Assembly: GCA_030525875.1 (NCBI GenBank) | Contig: JAUNDV010000006.1 | Span: 30,967-94,966 of the forward strand | Direction of reading: 5' to 3' | Origin: Eubacteriales bacterium | GTDB lineage: Bacteria; Bacillota; Clostridia; Lachnospirales; Lachnospiraceae | DNA: 64,000 nt | In this document: positions 5,262-42,434 of the stretch, in pieces | Position numbering within the stretch: the stretch's first letter is position 1 | Layout of the letters: every line of letters begins with the position of its first letter | The notes under the pieces: model-generated | What the model was told of the DNA's origin: nothing | The model's database searches: none | What the model saw: the letters and a program-made list of their open reading frames with translations, nothing else | Program-made: the position numbers and the translations under genes

Positions 5262-5283
5262 GGATATATGGGAGGATGAGTAA

Positions 5284-6360: not shown

Positions 6361-6388
6361 CTTGTGTTAAAATAGTGGAGGATATAAA

Positions 6389-6598: not shown

Positions 6599-6831
6599 GA
6601 CAAAAGAGCCTGAAGCTTATAATATCTTTCAGTACAACAAATGATGCTTTATTCTGCGATAGTTTATGTATGAATAATTCGATTAAAGGTAGACTTATCC
6701 CGGTTCCAAGAGAAATATCGGCGGGCTGCGGTCATGCTTATATGACGGAGCCGGAAAATAAGGAAGAGATATTAAAGCTTTTTGAAGACAACGAAGTTAT
6801 GTATGAAGAAATGCGCATAATGCTTTATTGA
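6595..6831 (+). CDS. DUF3343 protein, putative selenium/sulfur carrier
   Basis: The 78-residue product fits the DUF3343 family: an N-terminal strand ending in a short aliphatic run (LKLIISFSTTNDALF) and the ISAGCGHAYM segment with a conserved Cys. Members occur next to selD, YedE and NifS-like genes and are proposed carriers of Se or S; no activity has been established that I know of. It overlaps the upstream carrier gene by 4 nt and is 33 nt before the desulfurase, which supports a relay of small proteins. Confidence 0.8.
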   Translation: MRQKSLKLIISFSTTNDALFCDSLCMNNSIKGRLIPVPREISAGCGHAYMTEPENKEEILKLFEDNEVMYEEMRIMLY

Positions 6832-6864
6832 TGCATTATGCATATTTCTTTTTGGGGCAGAAAA

Positions 6865-25857: not shown

Positions 25858-25908
25858 TTATCATAATAAGGAAATAAGTTAAATCAGAAAATGTGGGAGG
25901 GTATCCTT

Positions 25909-26616
25909 ATGTATTCTTTGACATCTAAGCCACCGATTACATCAAGCGAAGTATACCAGGAAATATTAAATAGAATAATAACTCTAGATCTTGAACCAGG
26001 CAGATATATTAGTGAGAATCAGATGGCTAAGGAATATAATGTTTCCAGATCTGTTATAAGAACTGTTTTTGCAAGACTAAGCCAGATAGGATTAATAGAA
26101 ATTTATCCTCAGAGAGGAACATACATAAGCACTATGGATCTGGATTTTATTGCAGATATTCTTGTACTTAGAACAGCTGTTGAAAAAGAAGTTTTATACG
26201 AGATGTTTATGAAGCTTGGAGAAGCTGAAAGACTTAAGCTCGTAGAAAAGCTGGAGAAAAATCTAAAAGAGCAGGAGCTATGTAGAGATGAGGTAGACTA
26301 CTGCGGTAAGTTCCCTGAGCTTGATGCACAGTTTCATAAGATTATGATAGACAGTGTTGGAAGATATGCACTTCTTCAGGTTCTGGAAGATATAATGCTG
26401 CATATATCAAGATGGAGAAGCTTTGATGTAGCCTTTGATCAGAGAGTAGGAGAGCTTATAGATGAGCATAAGGCTATAGTAGAGGGGATTAAGATAGGAG
26501 ACCTTAAACTTGCCCAGCAGAAGATGGCAGAACATCTTGATACTATTACAGGAATAGCTGATAAGGCAATGGAGAAATTCCCTAACTACTTCCTTCAAAA
26601 ATCTAGAAATGAATAA
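25909..26616 (+). CDS. GntR-family transcriptional regulator (FCD/FadR subfamily)
   Basis: A 235-residue regulator with an N-terminal winged helix (SSEVYQEILNRIITLDLEPG, then ENQMAKEYNVSRSVIRTVFARL and the wing QRGTYIS), followed by an all-helical FCD effector domain. Candidate metal-binding residues are Asp and His in LDAQFHKIMI, then His in DEHKAI and in AEHLDT. FCD regulators usually sense carboxylic or hydroxy acids. The ATG at 25909 has GGGAGGG upstream. It is the first gene of the accessory island and a candidate regulator of the dehydratase/reductase cluster 4 kb downstream, which is inference. Confidence 0.88.
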   Translation: MYSLTSKPPITSSEVYQEILNRIITLDLEPGRYISENQMAKEYNVSRSVIRTVFARLSQIGLIEIYPQRGTYISTMDLDFIADILVLRTAVEKEVLYEMFMKLGEAERLKLVEKLEKNLKEQELCRDEVDYCGKFPELDAQFHKIMIDSVGRYALLQVLEDIMLHISRWRSFDVAFDQRVGELIDEHKAIVEGIKIGDLKLAQQKMAEHLDTITGIADKAMEKFPNYFLQKSRNE

Positions 26617-27175: not shown

Positions 27176-27269
27176 AATCAGATACCTTTCATTTAAGTTT
27201 TTTCTTTGCGTTTTACTTTGCATTTTACTTTGAGTCGTTACTTTAAGTCTTTTCTTTCATAGAAAAATT

Positions 27270-28067: not shown

Positions 28068-28070
28068 AAA

Positions 28071-29102
28071 TTAGTCCTTTCTCTTAATGATAAGGTAAAT
28101 AAAAAATGGAGCGCCTACAATACTTGTAACTACACCTATAGGAAGCTCAAGTGAGAGAATAGATCTGGCTATATCATCCATGAGTACAAGATAAGCAGCA
28201 CCAAGCAAGGCGCTAAGAGGAATTAAACGCTCATAGTTTACACCACAGATAGCTCTTGCCATGTGTGGAATCATAAGGCCGACCCAGCCAATAAGACCTC
28301 CGAGGCATACTGCTGCAGCACTTAACATGGTTGACGCTATAATAAATATAGCTCTGTAAAAACGTATATTTATTCCCATGGTCTGAGCTTCTTCATCGTC
28401 AAGTGTAAGAAGATTTATTTTCCATCTTAACAAAAATATAATAATAAGACCTAGAAGCATGGGAATGAAGCTCCATAGAAAGGCTTCATTATTTGTCTTT
28501 GTAAGACTGCCCATAAGCCAGAATGTAATCTGCTGCAAAACATCATTTGGGTCTGAAATATATTTTATAAGTGTAACACCGGCATTGCATAAAGCCATAA
28601 CCATTGAGCCTGTCAGAACCAGACTTATAATCTGTGAATGAGGAGAATTGCGACTGATAATATATGAAAATAAAACAGCTGCAATACCACCAAGGAAGGC
28701 TGACATCTGGATAGTGAAATTTGAGGATCCAAGAAGTATAGCTAAGGCAGCGCCAAGGCTTGCTCCCGATGAAACACCAAGTATATCAGGAGAAACAAGA
28801 GGATTTCTAAACATACCCTGATAGGTTGAACCTGCTACAGATAAAGAAGCGCCTATGAAACAGGCAGAAAGAATTCGAGGAAGTCTTATATTCCAAAAAA
28901 TAGTAACGGCCTGTTTTTTTATATCGTCAATTTCTATGAAACGTGAGAGAAAGGCCTTAAAGACTTCAGATGGAGAAAGAGGATAATAGCCTATACCAAA
29001 GGATATAATCACGATAGCAAACAAGGCCAGAGTCATAAATACAAAAATATATTTGCTTTTAAAAAATCTATCAAATTTTAATAACTTACTGTTTTTATTC
29101 AT
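28071..29102 (-). CDS. Iron-complex/cobalamin-type ABC importer, permease (FecCD family)
   Basis: A 343-residue membrane protein with about ten helices and the FecCD signatures NIRLPRILSA, GSTYQGMFRNPLVSPDILGVSSGA and GLIGWVGLMIPHMAR. The ATG at 29102 has AAGGTG 6 nt upstream; a GTG at 29111 is less likely. The importer is completed by the divergent lipoprotein gene at 29255, with the shared control region between. Confidence 0.93.
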   Translation of the reverse strand: MNKNSKLLKFDRFFKSKYIFVFMTLALFAIVIISFGIGYYPLSPSEVFKAFLSRFIEIDDIKKQAVTIFWNIRLPRILSACFIGASLSVAGSTYQGMFRNPLVSPDILGVSSGASLGAALAILLGSSNFTIQMSAFLGGIAAVLFSYIISRNSPHSQIISLVLTGSMVMALCNAGVTLIKYISDPNDVLQQITFWLMGSLTKTNNEAFLWSFIPMLLGLIIIFLLRWKINLLTLDDEEAQTMGINIRFYRAIFIIASTMLSAAAVCLGGLIGWVGLMIPHMARAICGVNYERLIPLSALLGAAYLVLMDDIARSILSLELPIGVVTSIVGAPFFIYLIIKRKD

Positions 29103-29111
29103 ATAAATCAC

Positions 29112-29254
29112 CTTAAGACATTTGGGTATACTATTACCTTAATTTTTTTTAGTATACTTGACATATTTTAATATATATGATATTTTGCAAAATGTAAACG
29201 ATATTTAAATAAAAAGATAACGAAATGTTATCTTAAAAGGGAGAGGTAGTAAAA
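29112..29254. promoter_or_regulatory. Divergent control region of the metal-chelate importer
   Basis: TTGACA (29158-29163), 17 nt, TATTTT (29181-29186) points to the lipoprotein gene. A perfect inverted repeat GTATACTA (29126-29133)/TAGTATAC (29150-29157) abuts that -35 and spans the likely promoter for the minus-strand genes, so one regulator could control both. A hairpin AAGATAAC/GTTATCTT (29214-29221, 29227-29234) lies in the 5' UTR just before the AAAAGGGAGAGG ribosome site. Confidence 0.6.
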
Positions 29255-30478
29255 ATGAAAAAAAATATGTCTAAGTTTATGGCGGTGTTAATGGCTGCAT
29301 CCCTGCTTACAGCATCAATAGCAGGATGTTCAGCAAAAAATGAAACAGCAGGTAAAAATGAAGAAACAGTTACAGAAGCAGTAGCTTCAGAAGAAAAAGC
29401 TTCAGTTTCCGAATCTGGAGAAGCTGAAACAAAAGATGCTGAAGCAGAAGAAGCAGAAACAGAAGCTGAGAAAAAAGCAGAAGCTACTACTGGTGAAACT
29501 TTAGAAATAACAGATATGTCAGGAAGAAAGATGGATATTCCAGTAGAAATTGACTCTGTATTTTCAACAGGCGCTGTTGCAGCGATTTACCTTTATACTC
29601 TTGCACCAGATAAGCTTCTGGGATGGAATTACCAGTTAAATGATTTGGAAAAAAGCGTAATTTTAGAGGAGTATCATGACCTTCCTAATTTTGGTCAGAA
29701 TGATGCAATTAACTTTGAAGCGGTAATAGCTGCTGAGCCAGATATAGCACTCATGGTAGGAAAATTAAATGATGCAACTAAGGATAAGGCAGACAAGATG
29801 TCTGACAGTCTTGGCGTTCCTGTCGTAGTTGTAGACAGCGATTTTGAAAAATCTGCTGATGTATACAGATTCCTTGGCGGACTTCTTGGAGAAGAAGAAC
29901 AGGCTGAGAAACTTGCAGCATATACAGATAAGGCATTCAAGGATATAGAAGACATGAAGCTTGAAGAGGGTGAAGCTGTAAGAGTTTATTATGGAAATGG
30001 AGAAGATTCTCTTGAGACACCTCCAAAGGGTTCAGAGCATGGCAGAATCTTTGATATCGTAAAGGCTGAAAATGTAGCAGACCTTGAAGTAGGAGATGGT
30101 TCAAGAATACAGATCTCAGCAGAGCAGCTTTTAGCATGGAATCCTGATGTCATAATATTAAATGGAGAACCAAAGAAAGATATAAGCGGAAAGAGTGCGG
30201 CAGAAAAGTTTAAGGCAGATCCTGTATTTGCAGAGCTGGATGCTGTTAAAAATGATACAGTATATGGATCACCAAATGCTCCATTCAGCTGGTTAGACAG
30301 ACCTTCAGGACCAAACCGTATTGTTGGTTTGAGATGGCTTCAGAGCAAGCTTTATCCTGATAAGGTAAATTATAATTTAGATGAAGAAGTAAAGACCTTC
30401 TTTGAGCTTTTCTATCATGTAGAGCTTTCAGATGAAGACCTTGTAAAAATATATAATGGCGAAATGTTAACAAAATAA
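29255..30478 (+). CDS. Metal-chelate ABC importer, substrate-binding lipoprotein
   Basis: A 407-residue class III binding protein. A lipoprotein signal with Cys25 (IAGC) anchors it to the membrane. Residues ~27-82 are an Ala/Glu-rich linker, and the periplasmic-binding-protein domain follows (ITDMSGRKMDIP, FEAVIAAEPDIAL, AWNPDVIILNG). A C-terminal stretch with NAPFSWLDRPSG would line the binding cleft. Cargo could be an iron complex, heme, cobalamin or an oxyanion such as molybdate, which also uses this importer class; I cannot decide. It is divergent from the permease and ATPase genes. Confidence 0.87.
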   Translation: MKKNMSKFMAVLMAASLLTASIAGCSAKNETAGKNEETVTEAVASEEKASVSESGEAETKDAEAEEAETEAEKKAEATTGETLEITDMSGRKMDIPVEIDSVFSTGAVAAIYLYTLAPDKLLGWNYQLNDLEKSVILEEYHDLPNFGQNDAINFEAVIAAEPDIALMVGKLNDATKDKADKMSDSLGVPVVVVDSDFEKSADVYRFLGGLLGEEEQAEKLAAYTDKAFKDIEDMKLEEGEAVRVYYGNGEDSLETPPKGSEHGRIFDIVKAENVADLEVGDGSRIQISAEQLLAWNPDVIILNGEPKKDISGKSAAEKFKADPVFAELDAVKNDTVYGSPNAPFSWLDRPSGPNRIVGLRWLQSKLYPDKVNYNLDEEVKTFFELFYHVELSDEDLVKIYNGEMLTK

Positions 30479-30769: not shown

Positions 30770-31546
30770 ATGTATATATTAGGAATTGATATAGGATCTA
30801 CAACTTCAAAAGCTGTCATCATGAATGACAAGAAAGAAATAGTAGCTTCATCTATAGTTGTTGCTACAGTTGGAACAGATGGTGTTTCACTTGCTCTTGA
30901 AGAGGTTCTTAATCAAAGTGGATTAAATGCTTCTGATATAAGCTGTACTGTTGCCACTGGCTATGGCCGTCAGACTTATGAAGGTGCTGATTATCAGGTA
31001 AGTGAATTGAGCTGCCATGCATTAGGTGTTAATTATATTTTTCCTGATGCAAGAACTGTCATTGATATCGGAGGACAGGATGCAAAGGTTCTTTCACTTA
31101 ATGAAAGCGGACGTATGGTCAACTTTATCATGAATGATAAATGTGCCGCAGGTACAGGAAGGTTTCTTGATGTTATGGCCAATATATTAAAGCTTGATAT
31201 TTCAGAGCTTGAGTCTGAGGCAAGGAAGGCTGCAAAACCTGCAAGCATTTCAAGTACTTGCACAGTTTTTGCTGAGTCAGAGGTTATATCCCAGCTTGCT
31301 GCAGGAACTTCGATTCCTGATCTTGTAGCAGGTATATGCCAGTCAGTTGCAACAAGGGTTGCTTCTCAGGCAAAGAGAATAGGAGTCAAGGAACGCGTAT
31401 GTATGAGCGGCGGAGTTGCTAAAAATGGTGGAGTAAGGGATGCTCTTTCAAAGGAACTTGGCGTTGAGATTGCATACAGCGATAAGGCACAGCTCATGGG
31501 TGCATTGGGAGCTGCTCTCTATGCATTTGATAAGATAAATAAATAA
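30770..31546 (+). CDS. hadI: 2-hydroxyacyl-CoA dehydratase activator (HadI/FldI type)
   Basis: ATP-driven one-electron injector for the dehydratase. The 258-residue protein is of the ASKHA/BadF family: phosphate loops GIDIGSTTSKAV and DIGGQDAKV, and Cys125 (NDKCAAGTGRF) and Cys164 (SSTCTVFAES), one from each subunit, which in a homodimer hold a single [4Fe-4S] cluster. Both positions match the known activators. It starts the cluster, 45 nt before the dehydratase alpha gene. The dehydratase is inactive without it. Reduced ferredoxin or flavodoxin is the expected donor. Confidence 0.94.
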   Translation: MYILGIDIGSTTSKAVIMNDKKEIVASSIVVATVGTDGVSLALEEVLNQSGLNASDISCTVATGYGRQTYEGADYQVSELSCHALGVNYIFPDARTVIDIGGQDAKVLSLNESGRMVNFIMNDKCAAGTGRFLDVMANILKLDISELESEARKAAKPASISSTCTVFAESEVISQLAAGTSIPDLVAGICQSVATRVASQAKRIGVKERVCMSGGVAKNGGVRDALSKELGVEIAYSDKAQLMGALGAALYAFDKINK

Positions 31547-31590
31547 TAATTTTTTTAAATCATCATGAGATAAAAAAAGGAGGTTTTGTC

Positions 31591-32826
31591 ATGGGTGAAG
31601 AAGTTAAAAAAAGCAGACCGGCACCTGATCCAAATTCAGCTAAGTTCAAATTAGGTTCAATTGCTGCAAAGGCTTATAGTGACTGTATTGAGGCAAAGGC
31701 CAGAGGAGAAATGGTCGGATGGTGTGCAAGTAACTTCCCAGTAGAAATTCCGGAGACCTTAGGATTATATGTATGTTATCCTGAGAACCAGGCCGCCGGT
31801 ATTGCTGCAAGAGGCGGCGGAGAGAGACTGTGTAATGTCAGTGAGGCTGAGGGATATTCAAATGATATCTGTGCTTACGCAAGAATTTCTCTTGCATATG
31901 CAAAATTAGGTCAGGCTCCAGAGCAGGATATGCCACTTCCAGATTTTGTATTATGCTGTAACAATATTTGTAACTGTATGATCAAGTGGTATGAGAACCT
32001 TGCAAGAGATCTCAACATTCCAATGATTATGATAGATATTCCATTCAATCCTGACTATGAAGTATCTGATGCAGAGGTTGAGTATATCAAGGCCCAGTTC
32101 TGGGATGCTATTCACCAGCTTGAAGAAATCACAGGCAAGAAGTGGAGTGATGAAAGATTCAAGGAGGTTATGGAGATTTCAGGTAAGGCAAGCCGTATGT
32201 GGATCGAGGCTACATCACAGGCTAAGTATGTACCATCTCCATTTAACGGATTCGATCTTCTTAACCACATGGCAGTAATGGTTACTGCAAGAGGTAAGGA
32301 AGCCGCAGCGGATGCTATGGAAACTCTTCTTAAGGAGTACATTGACAATCATGAGAAAGGTGTTTCAACCTTCCGTGCAGAGGAAAAATACCGTATCATG
32401 TTTGAGGGAATCGCTTGCTGGCCATGGTTAAGGGCAACCTCTACAGGACTTAAGAGCAGAGGCATCAACATGGTTACAACTATTTATGCTGATGCATTTG
32501 GATTTATATATGATGATTTTGACGGAATGTGCCGCAGATATGCAAGCGTTCCTAACTGTATGAACCTCGAGAAGGCAAGAGATAAGCGTATCAAGCTTTG
32601 CAAGGCTGACAGCGTTGAAGGACTTTTAGTTCATACAAACCGTTCATGTAAGCTTTGGTCAGGATTCATGCCTGAGATGAGCCGTCAGATCGGTGAGGCT
32701 TGTGGTATTCCTGTTGTTTCATTTGATGGAGACCAGGCAGACCCAAGAAACTTCTCTGAAGCTCAGTATGATACAAGAGTTCAGGGACTTATGGAAATTA
32801 TGGAAGCAAACAAGGGAGGTAACTAA
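31591..32826 (+). CDS. hadB: 2-hydroxyacyl-CoA dehydratase, alpha subunit
   Basis: One of two related subunits that remove water from (R)-2-hydroxyacyl-CoA through a ketyl radical, each with a [4Fe-4S] cluster. The 411-residue product belongs to the HgdA/HadB/FldB family. Candidate cluster Cys are Cys45 (VGWCASN), Cys81 (GERLCNVSE) and the CCNNICNC segment at 122-129. AAAAAGGAGG precedes the start; the beta gene follows after 2 nt. Codon choice is that of a highly expressed gene. Substrate could be aryl-lactyl-, 2-hydroxyisocaproyl-, lactyl- or 2-hydroxyglutaryl-CoA; the CoA-transferase and reductase partners disfavour 2-hydroxyglutarate. Confidence 0.92.
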   Translation: MGEEVKKSRPAPDPNSAKFKLGSIAAKAYSDCIEAKARGEMVGWCASNFPVEIPETLGLYVCYPENQAAGIAARGGGERLCNVSEAEGYSNDICAYARISLAYAKLGQAPEQDMPLPDFVLCCNNICNCMIKWYENLARDLNIPMIMIDIPFNPDYEVSDAEVEYIKAQFWDAIHQLEEITGKKWSDERFKEVMEISGKASRMWIEATSQAKYVPSPFNGFDLLNHMAVMVTARGKEAAADAMETLLKEYIDNHEKGVSTFRAEEKYRIMFEGIACWPWLRATSTGLKSRGINMVTTIYADAFGFIYDDFDGMCRRYASVPNCMNLEKARDKRIKLCKADSVEGLLVHTNRSCKLWSGFMPEMSRQIGEACGIPVVSFDGDQADPRNFSEAQYDTRVQGLMEIMEANKGGN

Positions 32827-32828
32827 AA

Positions 32829-33944
32829 ATGGCAGTAAAAGAAGAATTATTGGCACAGCTTCATGAAGTTGCTTCAAACCCAAGAAAACAGCTTGATTCA
32901 TATCTTGCCCAAGGCAAAAAAGTAGTAGCAGTTGCTCCTGTTTACACACCTATGGAGCTTATCCATTCAATGGGACTTGTTCCAATGGGCGTATGGGGCG
33001 CTGATGTAGAGATTAATGAAGCTAAGAAATATTTTCCAGCATTTATCTGCTCAATAATGCAGACAATATTAGAGCTTGGTATCAAGGGTGAGTATGACGG
33101 AGTATCAGCAATCGTTATTCCTTCATTATGTGATTCACTTAAGGCTATCGGACAGAACTGGAAATATGCAGTTAAGGATATTCCATTCATACCTATGACA
33201 TATCCTCAGAACAGAAAGCCTGAGTACGGCATCAAGTTCACAAAGGCAGGATATGAGAGAGTAATCAATGATCTTACAATTGCTACAGGACAGCATTATT
33301 CAGAGTTTGCTTTAGCTGAATCAAACAAGATTTATAACGAACACAATGCAGTTATGAGAGAATTTGCAGAGGTTGCAGCTACAGCAGAGCTCACAGCAGC
33401 TGAGAGAAGTGATGTATATAAGTCAGCATGGTTTATGCTTCCTGAGGAGCATACAGAAATAGTTAAAAAATTAATCGAGGAGCTTAAGCAGGGGCCTAAG
33501 GCAGAGGGCAAGGTAAGAGTTCTTGTATCAGGAATACTTGCAGATTCACCAAGTCTTCTCAATATCTTCGATGAGAACGGCATCAAGGTTGTATTTGATG
33601 ACGTAGCAGCAGAGTCAAGACAGTATCGCACAGATGTACCAGAAATGGAAAATCCTCTGGATGCTCTTGCTCATAAGTTTGCTGATATGGATAATTGTAC
33701 TCTTCTTTATGACCCTAAGAAGTCAAGAGTTGAATATATCATTGAACAGGCTAAGAACCACAATGCAGACGGCGTTATCGTTCTTATGACCAAGTTCTGT
33801 GATCCAGAGGAGTTCGATTACGTTCCAATTAAGCGTGCATGTGAAGCAGCTGGAATCCCTCATTTAAATATTGAGGTTGACCGCCAGATGGTTAACTATG
33901 AGCAGGCTAAGACAATGATTCAGGCATTTAAAGAAATGTTCTAA
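32829..33944 (+). CDS. hadC: 2-hydroxyacyl-CoA dehydratase, beta subunit
   Basis: Partner subunit of 371 residues (HgdB/HadC/FldC family). Likely cluster ligands are Cys74 (AFICSIMQ), Cys101 (PSLCDSLK) and a Cys near 310 (KFCDPEEFDY). The C-terminal segment HLNIEVDRQ is characteristic. It is translationally linked with the alpha gene (2-nt gap, GGAGGTAAC spanning the stop) and followed after 28 nt by a membrane carrier. Strong codon bias, as for the alpha subunit. Confidence 0.92.
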   Translation: MAVKEELLAQLHEVASNPRKQLDSYLAQGKKVVAVAPVYTPMELIHSMGLVPMGVWGADVEINEAKKYFPAFICSIMQTILELGIKGEYDGVSAIVIPSLCDSLKAIGQNWKYAVKDIPFIPMTYPQNRKPEYGIKFTKAGYERVINDLTIATGQHYSEFALAESNKIYNEHNAVMREFAEVAATAELTAAERSDVYKSAWFMLPEEHTEIVKKLIEELKQGPKAEGKVRVLVSGILADSPSLLNIFDENGIKVVFDDVAAESRQYRTDVPEMENPLDALAHKFADMDNCTLLYDPKKSRVEYIIEQAKNHNADGVIVLMTKFCDPEEFDYVPIKRACEAAGIPHLNIEVDRQMVNYEQAKTMIQAFKEMF

Positions 33945-33972
33945 ATAAATAACATCCTAGGGGGAATGTCAA

Positions 33973-35094
33973 ATGAAAAATAAGGAAAGAATGTCAATAA
34001 TAGTTGGTGTTGCCTTTGTATGGTTCACCACACAGTTTGGTGGTGGATTTGCATCTGGAAACCAGTTAAGACAGTATTTTGTACAGTTTGGTGTTTGGGC
34101 TTTCATAACATGTATCATGGCTCAGTGTATAGGTGCTTTCTACCAGTGGTATGGTTTAAAGTATGCCAAGAAGCACAATGTATATGATTACAAGAGCTTC
34201 AATGACAGCTTCTACGGCAAGTATTCACCGATTTTCTCTAACCTTTATGAGCTGGTTTATATTGTAACTATCTGTGTTGCTCCTGCAGCTGCATTTGCAA
34301 CAGGTGTTAGTACAATGGAAAGTGCTTTTGGTATCAACCATTGGATTGGTACAGCATTTGTAGGTGTATTCATTTTCATCGTTGCTGTTTATGGTACTAA
34401 CGTTGTTCGTAAGGTTGCTTCAACCTTATCTATTCTGATTGTTGTGGGATTATTCTTAGTTTATATCCCTAACATTTTTGTACAGTGGGATAGTATTTCA
34501 GCAAATATTTCAGCAAGCCTTGCAAACCCAGCACCTTTTGGAAAGGCAGTTTGGACAGGTATAGTTTATGCTGCATTCCAGTTAGGTTCAATTGGTCTTT
34601 TATTCCAGCATGCTAAGCCATTCGAGAGTCCTGACGATGCTAAGTCATCTATGATCTGGGGACTTGGTGTTAACAGTATTATCTGTCTCATGGCAGTACT
34701 TGGACTTATGGCTATTACAAATGATCCAGACTTTGCAACAGCAAGCATTCCTCTTTTAATTCTTGTTAATAAGGGTGTTGCTCCAGACTTATTAAGACCT
34801 ATTATCTCAATCCTTATTGTACTTGGATCAGTTTCAACTGCAGTTAACATGATTGCAGGTATGTCAAACCGTGTATGTAAGGCAATGGATAAGTCATTCG
34901 ATCCAGAAGCTAAGCCAGGAAGAAATGTTATTATCGTTACATTTGTATGTACCTTAGTTGCATTCCTTATCGCACAGCTTGGACTTAACAATATTGTTTC
35001 AATTGGATACAAGTATCTTGGATACCTTACAATCCCAGTAATCATGATTCCTTATGTAGTTCATATGATTGCAACAAAGTTTGATACAAAGTAA
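33973..35094 (+). CDS. YkvI-family membrane transporter in dehydratase cluster
   Basis: A 373-residue integral membrane protein with about ten helices. It opens GVAFVWFTTQFGGGFASG, the conserved first-helix signature of YkvI-like proteins, a branch of the amino acid-polyamine-organocation (LeuT-fold) carriers. Family substrates are essentially uncharacterised. Its place between the dehydratase and the CoA-transferase, with the same codon bias, suggests it imports the amino or hydroxy acid used by the pathway or exports the reduced acid. That role is inference from context. Confidence 0.8.
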   Translation: MKNKERMSIIVGVAFVWFTTQFGGGFASGNQLRQYFVQFGVWAFITCIMAQCIGAFYQWYGLKYAKKHNVYDYKSFNDSFYGKYSPIFSNLYELVYIVTICVAPAAAFATGVSTMESAFGINHWIGTAFVGVFIFIVAVYGTNVVRKVASTLSILIVVGLFLVYIPNIFVQWDSISANISASLANPAPFGKAVWTGIVYAAFQLGSIGLLFQHAKPFESPDDAKSSMIWGLGVNSIICLMAVLGLMAITNDPDFATASIPLLILVNKGVAPDLLRPIISILIVLGSVSTAVNMIAGMSNRVCKAMDKSFDPEAKPGRNVIIVTFVCTLVAFLIAQLGLNNIVSIGYKYLGYLTIPVIMIPYVVHMIATKFDTK

Positions 35095-35114
35095 TTAATT
35101 TAAACATTTTATTT

Positions 35115-35177
35115 ATCTAAGTCGGAGTTATGCTCCGGCTTAGATACAAATTACATAAAATATCAAAATGTAATTTG
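35115..35177 (+). promoter_or_regulatory. Hairpin plus 10-bp inverted repeat upstream of CoA-transferase gene
   Basis: ATCTAAGTCGGAG (35115-35127) pairs with CTCCGGCTTAGAT (35133-35145), with a single G-T pair and a 5-nt loop, but no U-run follows. Right after it, CAAATTACAT (35147-35156) and ATGTAATTTG (35168-35177) form a perfect inverted repeat with an 11-nt spacer. The left arm continues as ATTACATAAA, shared with the region before hadI. This looks like an operator at a second transcription start within the cluster, or a boundary between two units. Confidence 0.5.
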
Positions 35178-35210
35178 AAAAGTTACTAATATAGTAAAGG
35201 AGATAAAGAA

Positions 35211-36449
35211 ATGAGCAAACCATTAGACGGCGTACGTGTTGTTGAACTTGCTACATTTATTGCAGCGTCTGCAGCAGGAAGATTTTTAGCAGATTTAGGT
35301 GCAGATGTAATCAAGATCGAGTCTGCAAAGGGAGATCCTTTAAGATATACAGCTCCTTCAGAGGGACGTCCTCTGGATATGTATGAGAATACAACCTGGG
35401 ATCTTGAAAATGGAAACAAGCGTTGCCTTTCACTTAATATGAAGACAGCTGAAGGAAAAGAGGCATTCTTTAAGCTTCTCGAGACAGCAGACGTTCTTAT
35501 AACAAACTGGAGAGTTCAGGCTCTTGAGAGAGCAGGACTTGACTATGAAACACTTAAAGTCAGATTCCCTAAGCTTGTATACGCAATCTGCACAGGCTAT
35601 GGAGAGAAGGGACCAGACCGTGACCTTCCAGGATTTGACTTCACAGCTTTCTTTGCAAGAGGCGGATATTTTGATTCACTTCGTCAGAAGGGAACAGTTC
35701 CATTCAACGGAGTTCCAGGAATTGGTGATCACAACGTAGGTATGAACCTTGCAGCAGGAATCCTTGCAGCTTTATATCAGGCTAAGACAAAGGGAGTTGG
35801 AGAGAAGGTTGAGACTTCATTGTTTGAGTCAGCAGTATTCAACATGGGTATGATGGTTCAGGCATCTAACTATGAAGGAATCGCACAGAACTATCCTATC
35901 AATGTTCGTAATGGCGCAAACCCATTCCTTGGTGCATTCCGCACAAAGGATGATCGTTACCTTCAGTTCTGTACTCCTGACTACAATACTTACTACAAGA
36001 AGTTCATTGCAGTTCTTGGCAGAGAGGATCTTGTAGAAAACGAGAATTACTTCCCAATCTTAACATGTCAGGCTAAGGGACTTGTACCTGAGGTATATGA
36101 TATAGTTACAGAGCAGGTTGCTACAAAGACAGTTGAAGAGTGGAGACCTATTCTTGAGGCTGCTGATATTCCATTTGCATTATGTCAGAACTGGACTGAG
36201 ATCAGAAACGATCCACAGGCTATCGCAAATGACTGCTTCTATGACATGACATATGACAATGGTAATACAAGAAGACTTTGCAGACTTCCTGTTAAGTTTG
36301 AAGAGATGGGAGTACCTGAGTACAGAAGAGGTCCACTTATTGGTGAAAATGGTCCTGAGGTTCTTAAGGAGCTCGGATATAGTGATGAAGAGATCAATGC
36401 TATGCTTGAGAATGGAACATTATATGTTTGGAAGGACGAGCGTAAGTAA
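35211..36449 (+). CDS. Family III acyl-CoA transferase (CaiB/BaiF; HadA/FldA type)
   Basis: Moves CoA from the end product (saturated or enoyl acyl-CoA) to the incoming 2-hydroxy acid, so activation costs no ATP. The 412-residue protein begins LDGVRVVELATFIAAS, and the catalytic Asp143 lies in PGFDFTAFFARGG, which forms the acyl-enzyme anhydride in this family. HadA (isocaproate) and FldA (phenyllactate) are the closest functional precedents; substrate is not readable. AAAGGAG precedes the start, with a possible operator upstream. Strong codon bias. Confidence 0.92.
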   Translation: MSKPLDGVRVVELATFIAASAAGRFLADLGADVIKIESAKGDPLRYTAPSEGRPLDMYENTTWDLENGNKRCLSLNMKTAEGKEAFFKLLETADVLITNWRVQALERAGLDYETLKVRFPKLVYAICTGYGEKGPDRDLPGFDFTAFFARGGYFDSLRQKGTVPFNGVPGIGDHNVGMNLAAGILAALYQAKTKGVGEKVETSLFESAVFNMGMMVQASNYEGIAQNYPINVRNGANPFLGAFRTKDDRYLQFCTPDYNTYYKKFIAVLGREDLVENENYFPILTCQAKGLVPEVYDIVTEQVATKTVEEWRPILEAADIPFALCQNWTEIRNDPQAIANDCFYDMTYDNGNTRRLCRLPVKFEEMGVPEYRRGPLIGENGPEVLKELGYSDEEINAMLENGTLYVWKDERK

Positions 36450-36465
36450 TAAATTAAATAATTAC

Positions 36466-36488
36466 AGGGCTGCAAGCTATGCAGCCCT
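36466..36488 (+). terminator. Intra-cluster hairpin between CoA-transferase and ligase genes
   Basis: AGGGCTGCA and TGCAGCCCT form a perfect 9-bp stem around AGCTA, 16 nt past the CoA-transferase stop and 39 nt before the ligase start. No U-run follows, so it may be a processing or partial-termination site that lowers ligase expression. Confidence 0.5.
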
Positions 36489-36527
36489 ATGCAATTGAGT
36501 AGCTTGTATACTAGTTGCGGAGATGAT

Positions 36528-38123
36528 ATGGAACTTATAGATAAGACACTAGGTCAGTGTTTACATGAACAGGCTTTAAAATTTTCTACAAAAGATGCAA
36601 TAGATTTAGATGACTTTAGCTGTAGCTATCAGGAGCTTGATAATATTTCAAGCCGTATTGCATTAAAATTACAAAAATTGAATATAGTCAGAGGCACTCA
36701 TGTAGGCATATGGGGCGTTAATTCAGCAAAATGGGTTATTCTTTTTTATGCTCTTGAGAAACTAGGTGCTGTACCTGTATTGATAAATACCTGTTACAGG
36801 GAGATTGAAGTCAGAGATATATTAAATCACTTTGATACCGAGGTACTTTTTTATGGTGAAGGCTATAAGGATTTAGTTTATAGGGATATACTTGATAACA
36901 TTGAAGATGAGCTTCATTGCGTTCATGATATGTTTGCTATAGAGGACTTCATAGAATATGATTTTGCACCTTTGGATGAAGAGCATACTCATATGTTAAA
37001 TGACATAATGTCAAAGCTTTCATCATCAGATCCTGCCTGCATGATCTTTACATCAGGAACTACCTCGTTACCTAAGGGAGTAGTGCTTACACACCATAAT
37101 CTGGTCAACAATTCACTTGCTATGATTAAGGCAATGCATTGGAATGAAAATGATAAAATGTGTATATCTGTTCCTTTATTCCATTGCTTTGGAATCACCG
37201 CAGGCATAGTTTCATGTATGCTTTCGGGAATGTCCTTTTATCTTTTGGCATATTTCAAGACAAACCTTGTATGGAATGCTATTGAAAATTGTGGATGTAC
37301 AGTTTTAAATGGCGTACCTAGCATGTTTCTTGCTTTAGTCAAAAAGGAAAAATATAAGGACAGAAATGGCAACAGCCTGAAATCAGGAATAATTGCAGGT
37401 TCTGCATTTAAAGCTTCAGAATATATGGATATCTGCAGAAGATTTCCAAATATGCATTTGCAGCCATCCTATGGACAGACTGAGACCTCACCTTGCATTT
37501 CCATTGCAGACTGGGATGAGGATAATGAAATCAAAGCACTTTCCGGTGGCAAAGTAATTGAAAATGTAGATGTAAGGATAGCAGATCCGCTTACGAATGT
37601 TCCACTTGAAACAGGCACAGTAGGTGAAATTCAGGTTAAGGGCTACAATGTAATGCAAGGATATTACAACATGTCTGAGGCAAATAAAAGAGTATTTACA
37701 GATGACGGATGGTTAAAATGTGGTGACCTGGGTTATCTTGACAAGGATAATTTTTTATATGTTACAGGACGTATAAAGGAAATGATAATACGTGCAGGAG
37801 AAAATATTTCGCCTTTTGAGATTGAAGAAGCTATCATGGATATTGATGCTGTTGAACAGGTTAAGGTAGTAGGTGTACCGGCGCAGGTTCGTCAGGAAGA
37901 AATAGCTGCCTGTATAGTTCTTAAAGAAGGACGAAATATTAGTCTGGAACAGATAAAGGAATATCTCAACAGGAGACTTGCACATTACAAAGTACCAGAG
38001 TATTACATTTTCCTAGAGAAGCTCCCTCTAAATGCAAGCGGAAAGATTGATCTTAAAGAAATAAAAAAAATAGCATTACTTAAGGCCGAAGAAATGAGGC
38101 TCTTAAATCAAAATGAAATATAA
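36528..38123 (+). CDS. Acyl-CoA ligase (AMP-forming)
   Basis: Activates a carboxylic acid with ATP and CoA through an acyl-adenylate. The 531-residue ANL-superfamily protein has the P-loop MIFTSGTTSLPKGVVLTH, QPSYGQTETSP, the adenylate-binding GWLKCGDLGYLD, the hinge GRIKEMI and the catalytic Lys in NASGKIDLKEI. ATG 36528 (CGGAGATGAT upstream) is preferred to 36489. Its codon use is plainer (more AAA, ATA) than its neighbours. That fits a priming role, making the first CoA ester so the CoA-transferase can cycle, as for CarB of caffeate reduction and FldL-type ligases. Confidence 0.9.
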   Translation: MELIDKTLGQCLHEQALKFSTKDAIDLDDFSCSYQELDNISSRIALKLQKLNIVRGTHVGIWGVNSAKWVILFYALEKLGAVPVLINTCYREIEVRDILNHFDTEVLFYGEGYKDLVYRDILDNIEDELHCVHDMFAIEDFIEYDFAPLDEEHTHMLNDIMSKLSSSDPACMIFTSGTTSLPKGVVLTHHNLVNNSLAMIKAMHWNENDKMCISVPLFHCFGITAGIVSCMLSGMSFYLLAYFKTNLVWNAIENCGCTVLNGVPSMFLALVKKEKYKDRNGNSLKSGIIAGSAFKASEYMDICRRFPNMHLQPSYGQTETSPCISIADWDEDNEIKALSGGKVIENVDVRIADPLTNVPLETGTVGEIQVKGYNVMQGYYNMSEANKRVFTDDGWLKCGDLGYLDKDNFLYVTGRIKEMIIRAGENISPFEIEEAIMDIDAVEQVKVVGVPAQVRQEEIAACIVLKEGRNISLEQIKEYLNRRLAHYKVPEYYIFLEKLPLNASGKIDLKEIKKIALLKAEEMRLLNQNEI

Positions 38124-38170
38124 GTACATTTTATGTATATAGTAAACCTTATAAGGAGGAATAAACAAAC

Positions 38171-39319
38171 ATGGCAGAGGCGTTTTTTACAGAACAGCAC
38201 GAGCTTATAAGAAAGCTTGCTCGTGATTTTGCAGAAAAAGAATTGACCAAAGAAATCTTGGATGAGGTTGAGGAAACAGAGGTATTTCCTGAGGAAATCT
38301 TAGACAAGATGGCAAAGGCTGGTTTCTTTGGCGTTAAGATTCCTAAGGAGCTTGGCGGACAGGGAGCTGATGCTCGTTCATACGTACTTGTTATGGAAGA
38401 AATCGCAAGAGTTTCAGGCGTAGCAAGTATTTACGTTTCAAGCCCTAACTCACTTTCAGGCGGACCACTTTTACTTGCTGGAAATGATGAGCAGAAGGAA
38501 AAATATCTTAGACCTGTAGTTACAGGAGAGAAGAAACTCGCATTTGCTCTTACAGAGCCGGGTGCAGGTTCAGATGCAGGTGCAGTAGCTACAACAGCAA
38601 GAAGAGAGGGAGACCACTATGTACTCAACGGACGTAAGTGCTTCATCACAATGGCTCCATTATCTGATTATGCAGTTGTATTTGCAAAGACAGATGTTAC
38701 AAAGGGAAATAAGGGACTTTCAGCATTTGTTGTTGACATGCATGCACCAGGAGTATCTTGTGGTAAGCCAGAGAACAAGATGGGTGTAGTAGGATGTGCT
38801 ACTTCAGATATTATCCTCGAAAATGCAATCGTTCCTGTAGAGGACAGATTAGGCGAGGAAGGCGATGGATTTAAGATTGCCATGCAGACACTTAACACAG
38901 GACGTCTTGGTGTTGCAGCCCAGTCAATTGGTGTAGCCCAAGGCTGTCTTGATGAGGCTGTTAAGTATGCTAAGGAGAGAAAGCAGTTTGGCAGACCTAT
39001 AGGCAATTTCCAGGCAATTTCATTTATGATCGCTGAAATGGCTACAAAGCTTGAGGCAGCTAAGCAGCTTGTTTATAAGGCAGCATATATGATGGATACA
39101 AGACAGGATGCAACTTTAAATGCTTCTATGGCAAAGTATTATGCTTCAGAAGTATGTAATGAGATTGCACAGAAGGCAGTTCAGATCCATGGTGGATACG
39201 GCTTTATCAAGGATTACAAGATTGAGCGTATGTTCCGTGACTGTCGTGTATTTACTATCTACGAGGGTACAAGCCAGGTACAGCAGATGGTAATCAGCGG
39301 AAAGCTTCTTAAGAAGTAA
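38171..39319 (+). CDS. Acyl-CoA dehydrogenase acting as enoyl-CoA reductase
   Basis: FAD flavoprotein of 382 residues. Motifs: FALTEPGAGSDAGA for FAD/substrate binding, NGRKCFIT, QFGRPIGNFQAISF, and the catalytic Glu365 in IYEGTSQVQ at the place used by short-chain enzymes. In this setting it most likely runs as a reductase on the 2-enoyl-CoA from the dehydratase, taking electrons from the EtfBA encoded next (18-nt gap to etfB). AcdA-EtfBA of aryl-acid reducers and CarC are precedents. High codon bias. Confidence 0.93.
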   Translation: MAEAFFTEQHELIRKLARDFAEKELTKEILDEVEETEVFPEEILDKMAKAGFFGVKIPKELGGQGADARSYVLVMEEIARVSGVASIYVSSPNSLSGGPLLLAGNDEQKEKYLRPVVTGEKKLAFALTEPGAGSDAGAVATTARREGDHYVLNGRKCFITMAPLSDYAVVFAKTDVTKGNKGLSAFVVDMHAPGVSCGKPENKMGVVGCATSDIILENAIVPVEDRLGEEGDGFKIAMQTLNTGRLGVAAQSIGVAQGCLDEAVKYAKERKQFGRPIGNFQAISFMIAEMATKLEAAKQLVYKAAYMMDTRQDATLNASMAKYYASEVCNEIAQKAVQIHGGYGFIKDYKIERMFRDCRVFTIYEGTSQVQQMVISGKLLKK

Positions 39320-39337
39320 TGTAGGAGGATATAGAGA

Positions 39338-40123
39338 ATGAAGATATTAGTATGTGTAAAGCAGGTACCTGATACAAACGAAGTAAAAATCGACCCGGTA
39401 AAGGGAACTCTTATCCGTGATGGTGTACCAAGTATCTTAAACCCTGATGATGCAAATGCTTTGGAGGCAGCACTTCAATTAAAGGACAAGGATAATTCAA
39501 TCGTAGTTGATGTTATAACCATGGGACCTCCACAGGCAACATATATGCTTCGTGAGTGTCTTGCAATGGGTGCAGACAATGCATACCTCTTAAGTGACCG
39601 TGCATTTGGAGGAGCTGATACCTGTGCTACTTCTACAACAATTGCAGCCGGAATCAAGAAGGTTGGCGATGTAGATGTTATTTTTGCAGGACGTCAGGCT
39701 ATCGATGGAGATACAGCCCAGGTTGGACCTCAGGTTGCACAGAGACTTAACCTTCCTGTTGTTACCTATGTACAGGATATCCAGATGGGAGACGGCAAGG
39801 TTACAGTACAGAGACAGATGGAAGATGGATATGAGCTTATCGAGGTTCAGACACCTTGTCTCTTAACATGTGTTAAGGAGCTTAATGAGCCAAGATATAT
39901 GTCAATCGGAGCTATTGTAGATGCATATAAGAAGGAGATAACTGTATGGAATCATGAGGATGTTGAGCTTGATCCTGCTGATTGCGGTCTTAATGCATCT
40001 CCTACACAGGTATTCCGTTCATTTACACCTCCTCAGAAGGGTAAGGGAGAAATGCTCAACGGAACAATTGATGAAATGGCAGGCGCACTTGTTGGAAAGC
40101 TTGTTGAAAAGCATCTTATTTAA
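39338..40123 (+). CDS. etfB: Electron transfer flavoprotein beta subunit
   Basis: The 261-residue protein shows MKILVCVKQVPDTNEVK, the nucleotide-binding FAGRQAIDGDTAQVGPQ and the C-terminal recognition segment. EtfB binds NAD(H) and, in bifurcating Etfs, the bifurcating FAD. It forms a heterodimer with the EtfA encoded 21 nt downstream and delivers electrons to the acyl-CoA dehydrogenase upstream. Its start follows GTAGGAGGATATAGAG. Confidence 0.94.
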   Translation: MKILVCVKQVPDTNEVKIDPVKGTLIRDGVPSILNPDDANALEAALQLKDKDNSIVVDVITMGPPQATYMLRECLAMGADNAYLLSDRAFGGADTCATSTTIAAGIKKVGDVDVIFAGRQAIDGDTAQVGPQVAQRLNLPVVTYVQDIQMGDGKVTVQRQMEDGYELIEVQTPCLLTCVKELNEPRYMSIGAIVDAYKKEITVWNHEDVELDPADCGLNASPTQVFRSFTPPQKGKGEMLNGTIDEMAGALVGKLVEKHLI

Positions 40124-40144
40124 TCGTATAGGAGGATAGTTACA

Positions 40145-41338
40145 ATGGCAATTAAGGTTATCTTAGATAAATGTAAAGGTTGTACAAAGTGCGTTAAGTC
40201 TTGCCCATTTACAGCCATTACAATGGAAAATAAAAAGGCAGTGATTGGTGCTGCATGTACAGGCTGCGGACAGTGTGTAGATACATGTCCTTTTGGAGCT
40301 ATTGAAAAGGCAGATGATGGTAAGGAAGCAGCAGATCTTAGCGCTTACCATGGCGTATGGGTATTTGCTGAGCAGAGAGACGGAAAGCTTATGCAGGTTG
40401 CAAGAGAGCTTCTTGGAGAGGGAAGAAAGCTTGCTGATGCAGTAGGATGTGAGCTCTGCGCAGTTCTTTGCGGAAGCGAAGTAGATGGAATCATCAATGA
40501 TCTCTTTGAGTTTGGTGCTGACAAGGTTTACTATGCAAATGCTCCAGAGCTTAAGCAGTACACAACTGATGCATATACAAAGACAATTTACGAGGCTATT
40601 ACAGAGTATAAGCCAGAGATCGTATTACTTGGAGCTACACATATCGGACGTGACTTAGGTCCATGTCTTGCAGTTAGATGTAATACAGGTCTTACAGCAG
40701 ACTGTACAAAGCTTGAGATAAATCCTGAGACAAAGGGAATTATGCAGACCCGTCCAGCATTTGGTGGAAACCTCATGGCAACTATCGTATGTCCTAACCA
40801 CAGACCACAGATGTCAACAGTACGTCCGGGTGTAATGGAGAAGGCAAAGAGAGAGGCTGGAAGAAGAGGAGAGGTAATAGAGCTTCATCCTACATTTGCA
40901 GAGGGCGATATCCGTACAAAGGTTCTTGAGGTTGTTAAGTCAGCTAAGGAAATGGTATCACTTACAGATGCAGAAGTTATCGTATCAGGTGGTATGGGAC
41001 TTGGCAAGGCAGAGGGCTTTGAACTTCTTAAGAAGCTTGCTGACAAGTTTGGCGGAACAATTGCTTCTTCAAGAGCAGCTGTTGATGCCGGCTGGATTGA
41101 CCATGCATATCAGGTAGGACAGACAGGAACAACTGTTAAGCCTAAGATTTATTTTGCCTGCGGTATAAGCGGAGCTATCCAGCACGCAGCAGGAATGCAG
41201 AATTCTGGTCTTATAGTTGCTATCAATACAAATGAAAATGCACCTATCTTTGATATTGCAGATATCGGTATTGTAGGAGATCTTTACAAGGTTATTCCTG
41301 CTATTATCGAAGAGATGGACAAGGTTCCTCAGAAATAA
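40145..41338 (+). CDS. etfA: Electron transfer flavoprotein alpha subunit with N-terminal 2x[4Fe-4S] ferredoxin domain
   Basis: A 397-residue fusion. Residues 1-~55 are a bacterial ferredoxin with Cys10/13/16/20 and Cys38/41/44/48, two complete [4Fe-4S] motifs. The rest is EtfA, ending in the FAD-binding domain ([51 protein letters not shown]). This architecture is known from CarE of caffeoyl-CoA reductase and LctC of lactate dehydrogenase in acetogens, both in electron-bifurcating complexes. Here it suggests NADH-driven enoyl-CoA reduction coupled to ferredoxin reduction. Last gene of the core operon; a terminator follows. Confidence 0.93.
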
Positions 41339-41357
41339 TTTTAATTGATATTATCTG

Positions 41358-41392
41358 GCGTCCGGAATATAATTGTTCCGGACGCTGTATTT
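41358..41392 (+). terminator. Terminator after etfA
   Basis: GCGTCCGGAA (41358-41367) and TTCCGGACGC (41376-41385) form a perfect 10-bp, GC-rich stem around an 8-nt loop, then TGTATTTATT. The following gene still lies close and may be read through. Confidence 0.8.
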
Positions 41393-41420: not shown

Positions 41421-42434
41421 ATGATTTCAGATCAGATTGAGGAATTTTTTCCGGGCATATATAGAATTTTAATTCCACTGGCTGGAAATCCTCTTAAGGA
41501 GCTCAACAGCTATGTTATTAAAGGAAATAGCGAATCCAACAACCTGCTTATAGATACCGGTTTTCAGACAAAGGAATGCTATCAGTGCATGGTAGAGAGT
41601 CTTGATAAGCTTGGTATATCCATGGATAATACAGATATACTTCTTACACATCTTCATGCAGATCATTCTGGAAATGCTGCTGCCCTTATAAAAGAAAATA
41701 ATAAAGTATATCTGAGTTCACTTGATACAGAGGTTCTTTTATCTCACAGCAGGAGTCTGCCCGGAGGCGAAGGCGGTATGTATGAATACCAGAGAAACAG
41801 ACTTATAAGGAACCAGATATCTCCTTTGCTTGTAGATAAAATGCTTGAAAATTCCACCTCATATAAGGTTAATCCTGATTATAGCTTTACAAACTATACA
41901 AAGCTTGAAGAGGGAAATATTATTGAAGCAGGAGATTACAAACTGGAAGCAATATATACCTGTGGTCATACCCCGGGACATATGTGCTTTAATGTTCAGG
42001 GAACAGGAATTATGTTTCTTGGAGATCATGTACTTTTTGGAATTACTCCTAATATCACGAACTGGCCGGGAGTAGAGGATTCTCTTGGCGATTATTTAAA
42101 AAGTCTGGATAAAATAAGTAAATATGATGTAAGTATTCCACTTCCGGGACATAGACAGACCGGGGATTTCTATGAAAGAATTGAAAGGCTTAAAGCACAC
42201 CATGAAAAAAGACTTAATGAATGTCTAAATATAGTTGGAAACAGTAAAGGTGCAAAGCTTTATGATATAGCTGGAAATATGAAGTGGAAGATAAGAGCAG
42301 CAAGCTGGGAGGATTTTCCTCCATTACAAAAATGGTTCGCTCTTGGCGAATGCTTATCTCATATTGACTTGTTAAAGAAACAGGGTAGAATTAAAGAATG
42401 TGGAACAGATAAAATCTGGTACGAGTTGTCATAA
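41421..42434 (+). CDS. Metallo-beta-lactamase-fold hydrolase at end of dehydratase cluster
   Basis: A 337-residue protein: MBL domain with the metal site THLHADH (residues 76-82), GHTPGHMCF and GDHVLFG, then a helical C-terminal part from about 240 with a winged-helix-like tail. This layout resembles LACTB2-like hydrolases, some of which act on thioesters or RNA. Position after etfA suggests it could cleave an acyl-CoA or remove a toxic intermediate, but no such activity is shown by sequence. The codon bias is weaker than in the core genes. A weak GAGG ribosome site precedes it. Confidence 0.8.
   Translation: MISDQIEEFFPGIYRILIPLAGNPLKELNSYVIKGNSESNNLLIDTGFQTKECYQCMVESLDKLGISMDNTDILLTHLHADHSGNAAALIKENNKVYLSSLDTEVLLSHSRSLPGGEGGMYEYQRNRLIRNQISPLLVDKMLENSTSYKVNPDYSFTNYTKLEEGNIIEAGDYKLEAIYTCGHTPGHMCFNVQGTGIMFLGDHVLFGITPNITNWPGVEDSLGDYLKSLDKISKYDVSIPLPGHRQTGDFYERIERLKAHHEKRLNECLNIVGNSKGAKLYDIAGNMKWKIRAASWEDFPPLQKWFALGECLSHIDLLKKQGRIKECGTDKIWYELS

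Follow-up and report, generated by a model that had tools for sequence, protein, structure and literature searches.

Introduction

Which 2-hydroxy acid is reduced by an operon that joins a 2-hydroxyacyl-CoA dehydratase to an acyl-CoA reductase, and do the two halves belong together? The question is raised by nine genes in a 64,000-nucleotide stretch of DNA from a Eubacteriales bacterium of the family Lachnospiraceae (GenBank assembly GCA_030525875.1, contig JAUNDV010000006.1, positions 30,967 to 94,966; hereafter the window). In order, they encode a dehydratase activator, the alpha (HadB) and beta (HadC) subunits of the dehydratase, a permease, a family III CoA-transferase, an AMP-forming acyl-CoA ligase, an acyl-CoA dehydrogenase (Acd), EtfB and EtfA (Table 1). 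A preliminary description of this DNA had given that order on a single strand, and it is borne out by the list of open reading frames (ORFs) of the window and by Pfam and NCBIfam families: all nine ORFs lie on the plus strand with intergenic gaps of 2–116 bp, and a family can be named for eight of the nine, the permease being the exception. The same gene set is seen again in dozens of named loci, more often than chance would explain. Here, we assign the operon to the reductive aryl-lactate (Fld) pathway, a known kind of operon, with a probability of about 0.85. This reading draws on gene content, homology, clades, key residues and two sites predicted from the sequence.

Dehydratase and CoA-transferase

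The operon holds a family III CoA-transferase that groups with Fld proteins, an activator with a two-subunit dehydratase, and a linked acd with etfBA. The alpha subunit is 76% identical to that of Clostridium cadaveris (beta subunit, 66%) and 60% identical to that of the Fld-type cluster of Peptostreptococcus anaerobius, against 46% for the Had-type cluster of the same species; the CoA-transferase (67% versus 41%) and Acd (59% versus 55%) lean the same way. In the HadB tree the Had clade stands separate (starred support 100) with the window outside it, and the window and C. cadaveris fall within a 41-row clade (starred, 99) beside a 20-row Peptostreptococcus clade (starred, 98). The CoA-transferase tree, which came with long-branch warnings, places the window in a 63-row clade (starred, 95) together with the Peptostreptococcus rows and leaves the Had-type rows outside. 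Cys94, Cys127 and Cys353 of the alpha subunit align with Cys84, Cys117 and Cys346 of 3o3m_A and are kept in 61 of 61 rows; in HadC, Cys74, Cys101 and Cys324 of the window protein are conserved in 52, 53 and 56 of 70 rows, respectively. We take these three cysteines per subunit to be the cluster ligands, and Asp173 of the CoA-transferase, which sits in a GDHNVG motif, is presumably the catalytic aspartate.

A Had-type operon, converting leucine-derived (R)-2-hydroxyisocaproate to isocaproate, would have the same kinds of genes and the same mechanism, and the window subunits are indeed 47% (HadB) and 46% (HadC) identical to the C. difficile HadBC of 3o3m. However, both equivalog cut-offs are missed by the window (HadB 495 against 750, HadC 440 against 700). 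The Had-type HadB of P. anaerobius passes at 760, and those of C. cadaveris and of the Fld-type P. anaerobius cluster score 517 and 541. With the window outside the Had clade, a CoA-transferase only distantly related to the Had-type one, and a predicted operator (see below) that is found in none of the seven Had-type loci at a threshold of 15.5, we consider this alternative very unlikely.

A lactate or 2-hydroxyglutarate dehydratase, leading to propionate via acryloyl-CoA or into a glutaconyl-CoA route, would belong to the same dehydratase superfamily, and Acd does match the AcrC model at 440 bits. The AcrC cut-off is 640, though, and those of AcrB (333 against 475) and AcrA (434 against 600) are missed as well, in a comparison that covered these three models. 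In the HadB tree five probable 2-hydroxyglutarate clusters, L158 and four kin, form a clade of their own (starred, 100) apart from the window. The alpha subunit does not group with these probable clusters, whereas grouping with 2-hydroxyglutaryl-CoA dehydratases is what the preliminary description had said would overturn it; the operon is also without a decarboxylase. L158 is labelled a 2-hydroxyglutarate cluster on account of its genes, two of them CoA-transferase-like, one for a decarboxylase-like subunit and one for a GltS-like protein; the other four rows were given the label by reading. We regard this second alternative as highly improbable. As a side observation, the alpha subunits of the probable 2-hydroxyglutarate clusters L036, L037, L038 and L041 have 479–503 residues, with an extra stretch near residues 105–110 of the window protein.

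Reductase block and the caffeate reductase

The preliminary description had likened the reductase half to the acetogenic caffeate pathway, and this likeness stands: the block is 72–74% identical to CarCDE (EtfB 74% to the EtfB of the Acetobacterium woodii car operon), and the ligase is 43% identical to that of the same operon. The N-terminal ferredoxin domain of EtfA has two CxxCxxCxxxC motifs, Arg203 lies in TRPAF, and Acd falls in the CarC clade, all as in a CarCDE-type reductase; the role of Arg203 and arylacryloyl-CoA as the CarCDE substrate are taken from the parts of PMC5861303 available to us. A. woodii CarC was recovered at 100% (6fah_C) in L253, which identifies that locus as the car operon.

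In a reductase tree of 22 loci picked for spread plus references, CarC groups with L253 and with another car operon, L252, in a clade (99/97, starred) that is nested in a 24-row clade (99/96, starred) whose remaining 21 rows are dehydratase-operon loci. A search of 391 genomes of the class for the window reductase gave, apart from the window itself, seven matches of at least 64% identity: four lie in dehydratase operons (L250, L251, L254 and L256), two in the car operons and one, L255, in another context with no dehydratase; L251 and L254 are records of L076 and L101 and so not new cases. Because the CarC clade is nested among dehydratase-operon rows, the caffeate reductase looks like a relative from within the Fld-type module, as judged from a tree whose inner nodes at this point lie below the starred level and whose sampling favours loci retrieved with the CoA-transferase.

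The term 'hybrid', used in the preliminary description, did not hold up, as dehydratase, acyl-CoA dehydrogenase and EtfBA together are the known fld arrangement, which C. cadaveris has as well and which Peptostreptococcus has with the genes ordered differently. A hybrid formed by recent fusion is ruled out by the conservation of the gene set across relatives and by the GC content of the operon (0.405, against 0.377 for the whole window).

Substrate and proposed route

Aryl-lactate is our best call for the substrate, because of the alpha-subunit and CoA-transferase trees, the missed Had and Acr equivalogs and the CarCDE-like reductase. Such aromatic lactic acids arise from phenylalanine, tyrosine or tryptophan. 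Of the substrates left open by the preliminary description, the aryl-lactates are thus favoured, and hydroxyisocaproate and lactate are disfavoured by the HadB and AcrC scores.

Several observations weigh against the Fld assignment. Identity does not place HadC nearer Fld: of the P. anaerobius homologues, it is 42% identical to the Fld-type and 45% to the Had-type protein. The clade evidence covers the alpha subunit, the CoA-transferase and the reductase. For EtfB and EtfA, identity is somewhat higher to the Had-type set (64% for both) than to the Fld-type set of Peptostreptococcus (57% and 53%). The HadB-tree node that unites the window type with the Peptostreptococcus type has a support of 88, not 95, and the trees were built without C. 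sporogenes Fld sequences and without authentic LcdAB or HgdAB references. Six fld-type loci (L250, L251, L256, L075, L082 and L109, the last of which begins at hadB) have no operator at 15.5; they comprise three fld loci with LarA and three of the ten window-type loci listed. No Rnf-Nqr family match is present in the own genome, which is 97.75% complete, so reduced ferredoxin must go elsewhere, for example to the activator or to a hydrogenase, and an energy gain via Rnf is unlikely in this host. Finally, the operon has neither a hydroxyacid dehydrogenase (FldH) nor an aminotransferase, in agreement with the preliminary description. An amino-acid-fed route is possible, because two partners are encoded elsewhere in the own genome: an aminotransferase with 46% identity to its Peptostreptococcus counterpart, and a hydroxyacid dehydrogenase with 45% identity to an enzyme encoded next to the C. 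uliginosum operon. In the indolepropionate (IPA) table of PMC9824871, fldH is missing from the row of C. cadaveris and also from that of P. anaerobius, although the P. anaerobius cluster does contain a hydroxyacid dehydrogenase gene. We take FldH as not required.

A full route from a 2-hydroxy acid to the saturated acid, as had been claimed, can be drawn by homology, with CoA-transferase recycling, a priming ligase and a CarCDE-like reductase; its steps would follow from established knowledge of the families. The ligase would prime the cycle with a first CoA thioester, after which the CoA-transferase would use arylpropionyl-CoA as the CoA donor for (R)-aryl-lactate (phenyl-, 4-hydroxyphenyl- or indolelactate). 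With ATP as the driving force, the activator would pass one electron to the two-subunit iron-sulfur dehydratase, and removal of water by this enzyme would give arylacryloyl-CoA. This would be reduced with NADH by the Acd–EtfBA complex, bifurcation also reducing ferredoxin, part of which could re-arm the activator. Phenylpropionate, hydroxyphenylpropionate or indolepropionate would leave as product, with NADH reoxidised. The substrate, the stereochemistry, bifurcation in this host, regulation and the direction of flux are inferred.

A predicted operator shared by the two halves

Both halves of the operon would be controlled by a GntR-family regulator through two copies of a 16-bp palindrome (Table 1). 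Its GTATAC core was first spotted 5' of the activator gene (act) of the window. Relatives then supplied 33 act-upstream sites centred on GTATAC for a matrix that took in nothing from the window, and it was this matrix that found the site at the ligase gene (lig). It marks these two places in 64 kb, the third-best score being 11.9, and 40 first-order Markov windows gave a maximum of 16.0, none as high as the two window sites. A weak operator-like site (11.3) was also seen at 29147.

Scored with one locus left out at a time, sites of at least 13 around the start were found in window-type relatives at act (24 of 34) and lig (19 of 42), with controls at hadB 1/41, hadC 0/40, permease 0/34, CoA-transferase 0/43, acd 2/41, etfB 0/38, etfA 0/36 and gntR 0/20; these relatives are not independent, several coming from one genus. 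In the Peptostreptococcus type the sites stand at lig (9/12), acd (7/19) and gntR (6/13), with none at act (0/18), hadB (0/20), hadC (0/20), CoA-transferase (0/19), etfB (0/16) or etfA (0/17). Five loci with a permease and an LctD-like gene had no operator at 15.5, and the single car-locus match (L252) falls within a coding region. Searched genome-wide with one mismatch, the bare 12-base core was not enriched (nine sites, against eight for the reversed control). The full matrix, applied to the 64-kb window and to these nine sites, was passed at 15.5 by the two window sites only, the next scoring 15.3 and 15.0.

With one copy of the palindrome before the activator gene and the other at the start of the ligase, the two halves are probably under the control of a single GntR regulator, the linked GntR protein being the candidate to bind. 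The preliminary description had named a lack of expression linkage between the halves as its second refuting result; the predicted operator would instead link them. GntR homologues (36–66%) occur in window-type relatives, and in most of the loci drawn the gene immediately precedes act. In the window itself, the GntR gene and the activator are separated by an ABC-transporter block (26693–30478; names by reading), with NTPase-, ATPase- and permease-like genes on the minus strand and a binding-protein-like gene on the plus strand. In L088 and L094 (Aedoeadaptatus/Peptoniphilus), lig is divergent from gntR with a strong operator in between. The literature that we searched holds no paper in which the GntR family, phenyllactate and a dehydratase are found together; what is new here is the probable shared switch for the two halves and a recurrent permease unnamed by the libraries searched.

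Two architectures and the source of the hydroxy acid

When named genomes were scanned for the CoA-transferase, 76 loci came up. Four proteobacterial ones (L116–L119) were left out from the start, and of the remaining 72 (L044–L115) we dropped 11 without a HadB ORF (L046, L062, L066, L073, L095, L099, L100, L102, L107, L110 and L113), leaving 61. Divided by HadB identity, 40 loci at 69% or more (the window type) stand against 21 others, with loci cut at contig ends, so that absences are partly unseen sequence. The relatives fall into two architectures. In the window type a close permease is present in 32 loci, a ferredoxin-fused EtfA in 31 of the 33 with EtfA in view, a hydroxyacid dehydrogenase in 3, a LarA-like gene in 6, and BrnQ and an aminotransferase in none. 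The other 21, of the Peptostreptococcus type, have no close permease (a distant one in 2) and no ferredoxin-fused EtfA (0 of 18), whereas a hydroxyacid dehydrogenase is present in 19, BrnQ in 18, an aminotransferase in 18 and a LarA-like gene in 1; the last comes from L078, which was counted here with a HadB just under 69%. The same genes occur in C. cadaveris, Lachnoanaerobaculum, Caproicibacter, Lacrimispora and uncultured Lachnospiraceae, with the CoA-transferase after etfA in several relatives. A Lachnoclostridium locus (L065) carries the operon genes twice in tandem, and for the second set no dehydratase pair of its own is in view.

The permease has no NCBIfam or Pfam model at E≤0.001 and no match in the Protein Data Bank (PDB) by sequence profile. 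Its structure model (pLDDT 87.3, pTM 0.85) finds Nramp, BetP, ApcT and AdiC as best folds in Foldseek (E around 1e-5, 12–16% identity, TM-score about 0.6–0.7 over the query), by which the predicted protein is a LeuT/APC-fold transporter, YkvI-like as we would assume. This fold does not separate hydroxy-acid from amino-acid transport and leaves the substrate open. Apart from the own genome, a close permease (35% or more) occurs five times in 391 genomes: one of the five lies in a dehydratase operon (L254), the other four (L257–L260) next to EtfB–EtfA and an FAD dehydrogenase. The best PDB match of the L258 dehydrogenase is LctD of A. woodii, and those of L257, L259 and L260 are 61%, 62% and 35% identical to it. 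More distant homologues (33% or less) turn up in many other settings, so specificity does not extend to the wider family.

These patterns suggest a variant, compatible with the Fld assignment, in which permease-imported aryl-lactate rather than deaminated amino acids is the main input. In its favour are the contrasting gene counts of the two architectures, the company that close permeases keep with EtfBA and an LctD-like dehydrogenase, and a LarA-like gene near the operon in 7 of 61 relatives, once with LarC-, LarE- and LarB-like genes. In L250 (13461–18338), for example, a LarA-like gene (Lar_N 34.1 bits, cut-off 23.3) follows the CoA-transferase of a fld-type operon and is itself followed by KdgT, a nickel-insertion protein, a PP-loop protein and an AIRC protein, which we take to be LarC-, LarE- and LarB-like, respectively. 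The LarA-like protein had no match in the PDB, and that of L109 is under the Lar_N cut-off at 21.5. Bifidobacteria are given as the main aromatic-lactate producers in the infant gut in the part of PMC10294742 consulted. Against it stand the aminotransferase and hydroxyacid dehydrogenase homologues of the own genome and its lack of a LarA match above cut-off (one of 20 bits only), a fold that equally fits amino-acid uptake (ApcT and AdiC being among the best), and C. cadaveris, which has the same architecture and appears in PMC9824871 as a maker of IPA, a tryptophan product. We hold this variant as tentative. A further reading, possible if doubtful, makes the window-type operon a module for aryl-lactate respiration that depends on other gut bacteria for its supply: the permease would import 2-hydroxy acids, a LarA-like nickel-pincer racemase in relatives would open either enantiomer, GntR and the two operators would co-induce both halves on aryl-lactate, and the acetogen caffeate reductase would be an offshoot minus the dehydratase.

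Operon boundaries and genomic setting

Table 1 Features of the operon and its surroundings (positions in the window)
Feature	Position	Strand	Evidence
GntR/FCD-type candidate regulator	25891..26616	+	name by reading, not family search
Predicted operator AACTGGTATACAAGAA	30634..30649		upstream of activator gene; score 16.9, second-best in 64 kb
Dehydratase activator (FldI/HadI-like ATPase; BcrAD_BadFG)	30770..31546	+	TIGR00241 274.8 bits, cut-off 125.4
2-Hydroxyacyl-CoA dehydratase alpha (FldB-like)	31591..32826	+	HGD-D 242.8 bits
2-Hydroxyacyl-CoA dehydratase beta (FldC-like)	32829..33944	+	HGD-D 288 bits
Permease, predicted LeuT/APC fold; candidate 2-hydroxy-acid importer	33973..35094	+	predicted fold
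CoA-transferase family III (FldA-like)	35211..36449	+	PF02515 284.6 bits
11-pair hairpin in the gap between CoA-transferase and ligase genes	36464..36490		scan match on - strand; + strand without T-run
Predicted second operator AGCTTGTATACTAGTT	36501..36516		just before probable ligase start; score 17.2, best in window
AMP-forming acyl-CoA ligase (FldL/CarB-like priming ligase)	36528..38123 (ORF opens 36489)	+	PF00501 251.5 bits
Acyl-CoA dehydrogenase, putative arylacryloyl-CoA reductase (AcdA/CarC-like)	38171..39319	+	73% to CarC; trees
EtfB (CarD-like)	39338..40123	+	NF040731 482 bits, cut-off 445
EtfA with N-terminal two-[4Fe-4S] ferredoxin domain (CarE-like)	40145..41338	+	72% over 394 residues to CarE
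Probable intrinsic terminator	41356..41387	+	14-pair stem, T-rich tail, 3' of etfA
MBL-fold hydrolase, recurrent neighbour	41421..42434	+	PF00753 72 bits; ORF group of 9 loci

The unit probably ends at the hairpin after etfA, from a terminator scan whose total was not above chance (10 sites, against 10.4 in shuffles). The MBL-fold hydrolase beyond it is probably its own unit; that it acts as a thioesterase is a possible guess. A GGAG just 5' of 36528 suggests that translation of the ligase probably begins there rather than at 36489. At the Rfam gathering threshold the window holds a single tRNA and nothing more.

The own genome comprises 1.83 Mb in 36 contigs. The operon is flanked by ackA and plsX; in G059, of another genus, a homologous operon sits at the same ackA-to-plsX site, and G117, of the same genus as the host, has the same flanks with no match there to any operon gene. 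A recent arrival is not shown by these two sites, one occupied and one without an operon. HadB is matched (E≤0.001) in 30 of 150 family genomes, the own included, of which the own and G059 (91%) alone have this HadB type, the others reaching 56% or less. Elsewhere in the window (4230–8022), SelD-like, YedE-like membrane and cysteine-desulfurase-like proteins stand in a row (names by reading), which suggests selenium use.

Significance

Indolepropionate is active in the host. It is found in the host circulation, and the host converts phenylpropionate made through the fld locus into hippurate, as passages of PMC9889317 state. With this operon of a probable gut bacterium, the Lachnospiraceae join the likely makers of arylpropionates. 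The operator motif is a candidate regulon marker, present in most Fld-type and no Had-type clusters among the loci scanned. If the reading of permease and racemase is true, producers would split into amino-acid-fed and aryl-lactate-fed types, and cross-feeding from aryl-lactate producers such as bifidobacteria could be tested gene by gene. As far as sequence comparison goes, the operon appears to be a well-supported, ordinary member of the Fld family, and the leads that it offers are an operator with two sites, the permease, and the division of the relatives into two architectures.

Comparison with known systems

The Had operon (C. difficile HadBC of 3o3m; P. anaerobius L155) has the same kinds of genes and the same mechanism as the window. 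In the Had-type loci L155, L156, L157 and L261, however, EtfA is without ferredoxin motifs, and in L155, whose HadB is 74% identical to that of C. difficile, a hydroxyacid dehydrogenase is adjacent. The carABCDE operon of A. woodii (L253) shares the block of ligase, acd, etfB and ferredoxin-fused etfA at 43–74% identity, but has a PF01144 (CarA-like) CoA-transferase and neither dehydratase nor activator in the stretch; in the window the transferase is of family III and a dehydratase is present.

The fldAIBC-type clusters of P. anaerobius (L098) and P. russellii (L084) are nearer, with a CoA-transferase at 67%, an alpha subunit at 60–61%, a shared ligase, acd and EtfBA, and the operator before lig, as in the window. 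They differ in having BrnQ, an aminotransferase and a hydroxyacid dehydrogenase, no such permease and an EtfA without the ferredoxin domain; the genes of L098 are ligase, CoA-transferase, activator, dehydratase, acd, EtfBA, hydroxyacid dehydrogenase, BrnQ and aminotransferase. The Fld cluster of C. cadaveris (L058) has all nine window genes at 48–85% identity, with the operator before act and lig, as in the window; its CoA-transferase stands after etfA, behind a DUF6198 gene, and not between permease and ligase. The C. cadaveris genome has three HGD-D genes, one pair in L058, its only two-subunit dehydratase, and one single, and in the portions consulted of PMC9824871 and PMC6098093 the species figures among the producers of indolepropionate, with fldBC, acdA and etfA–etfB.

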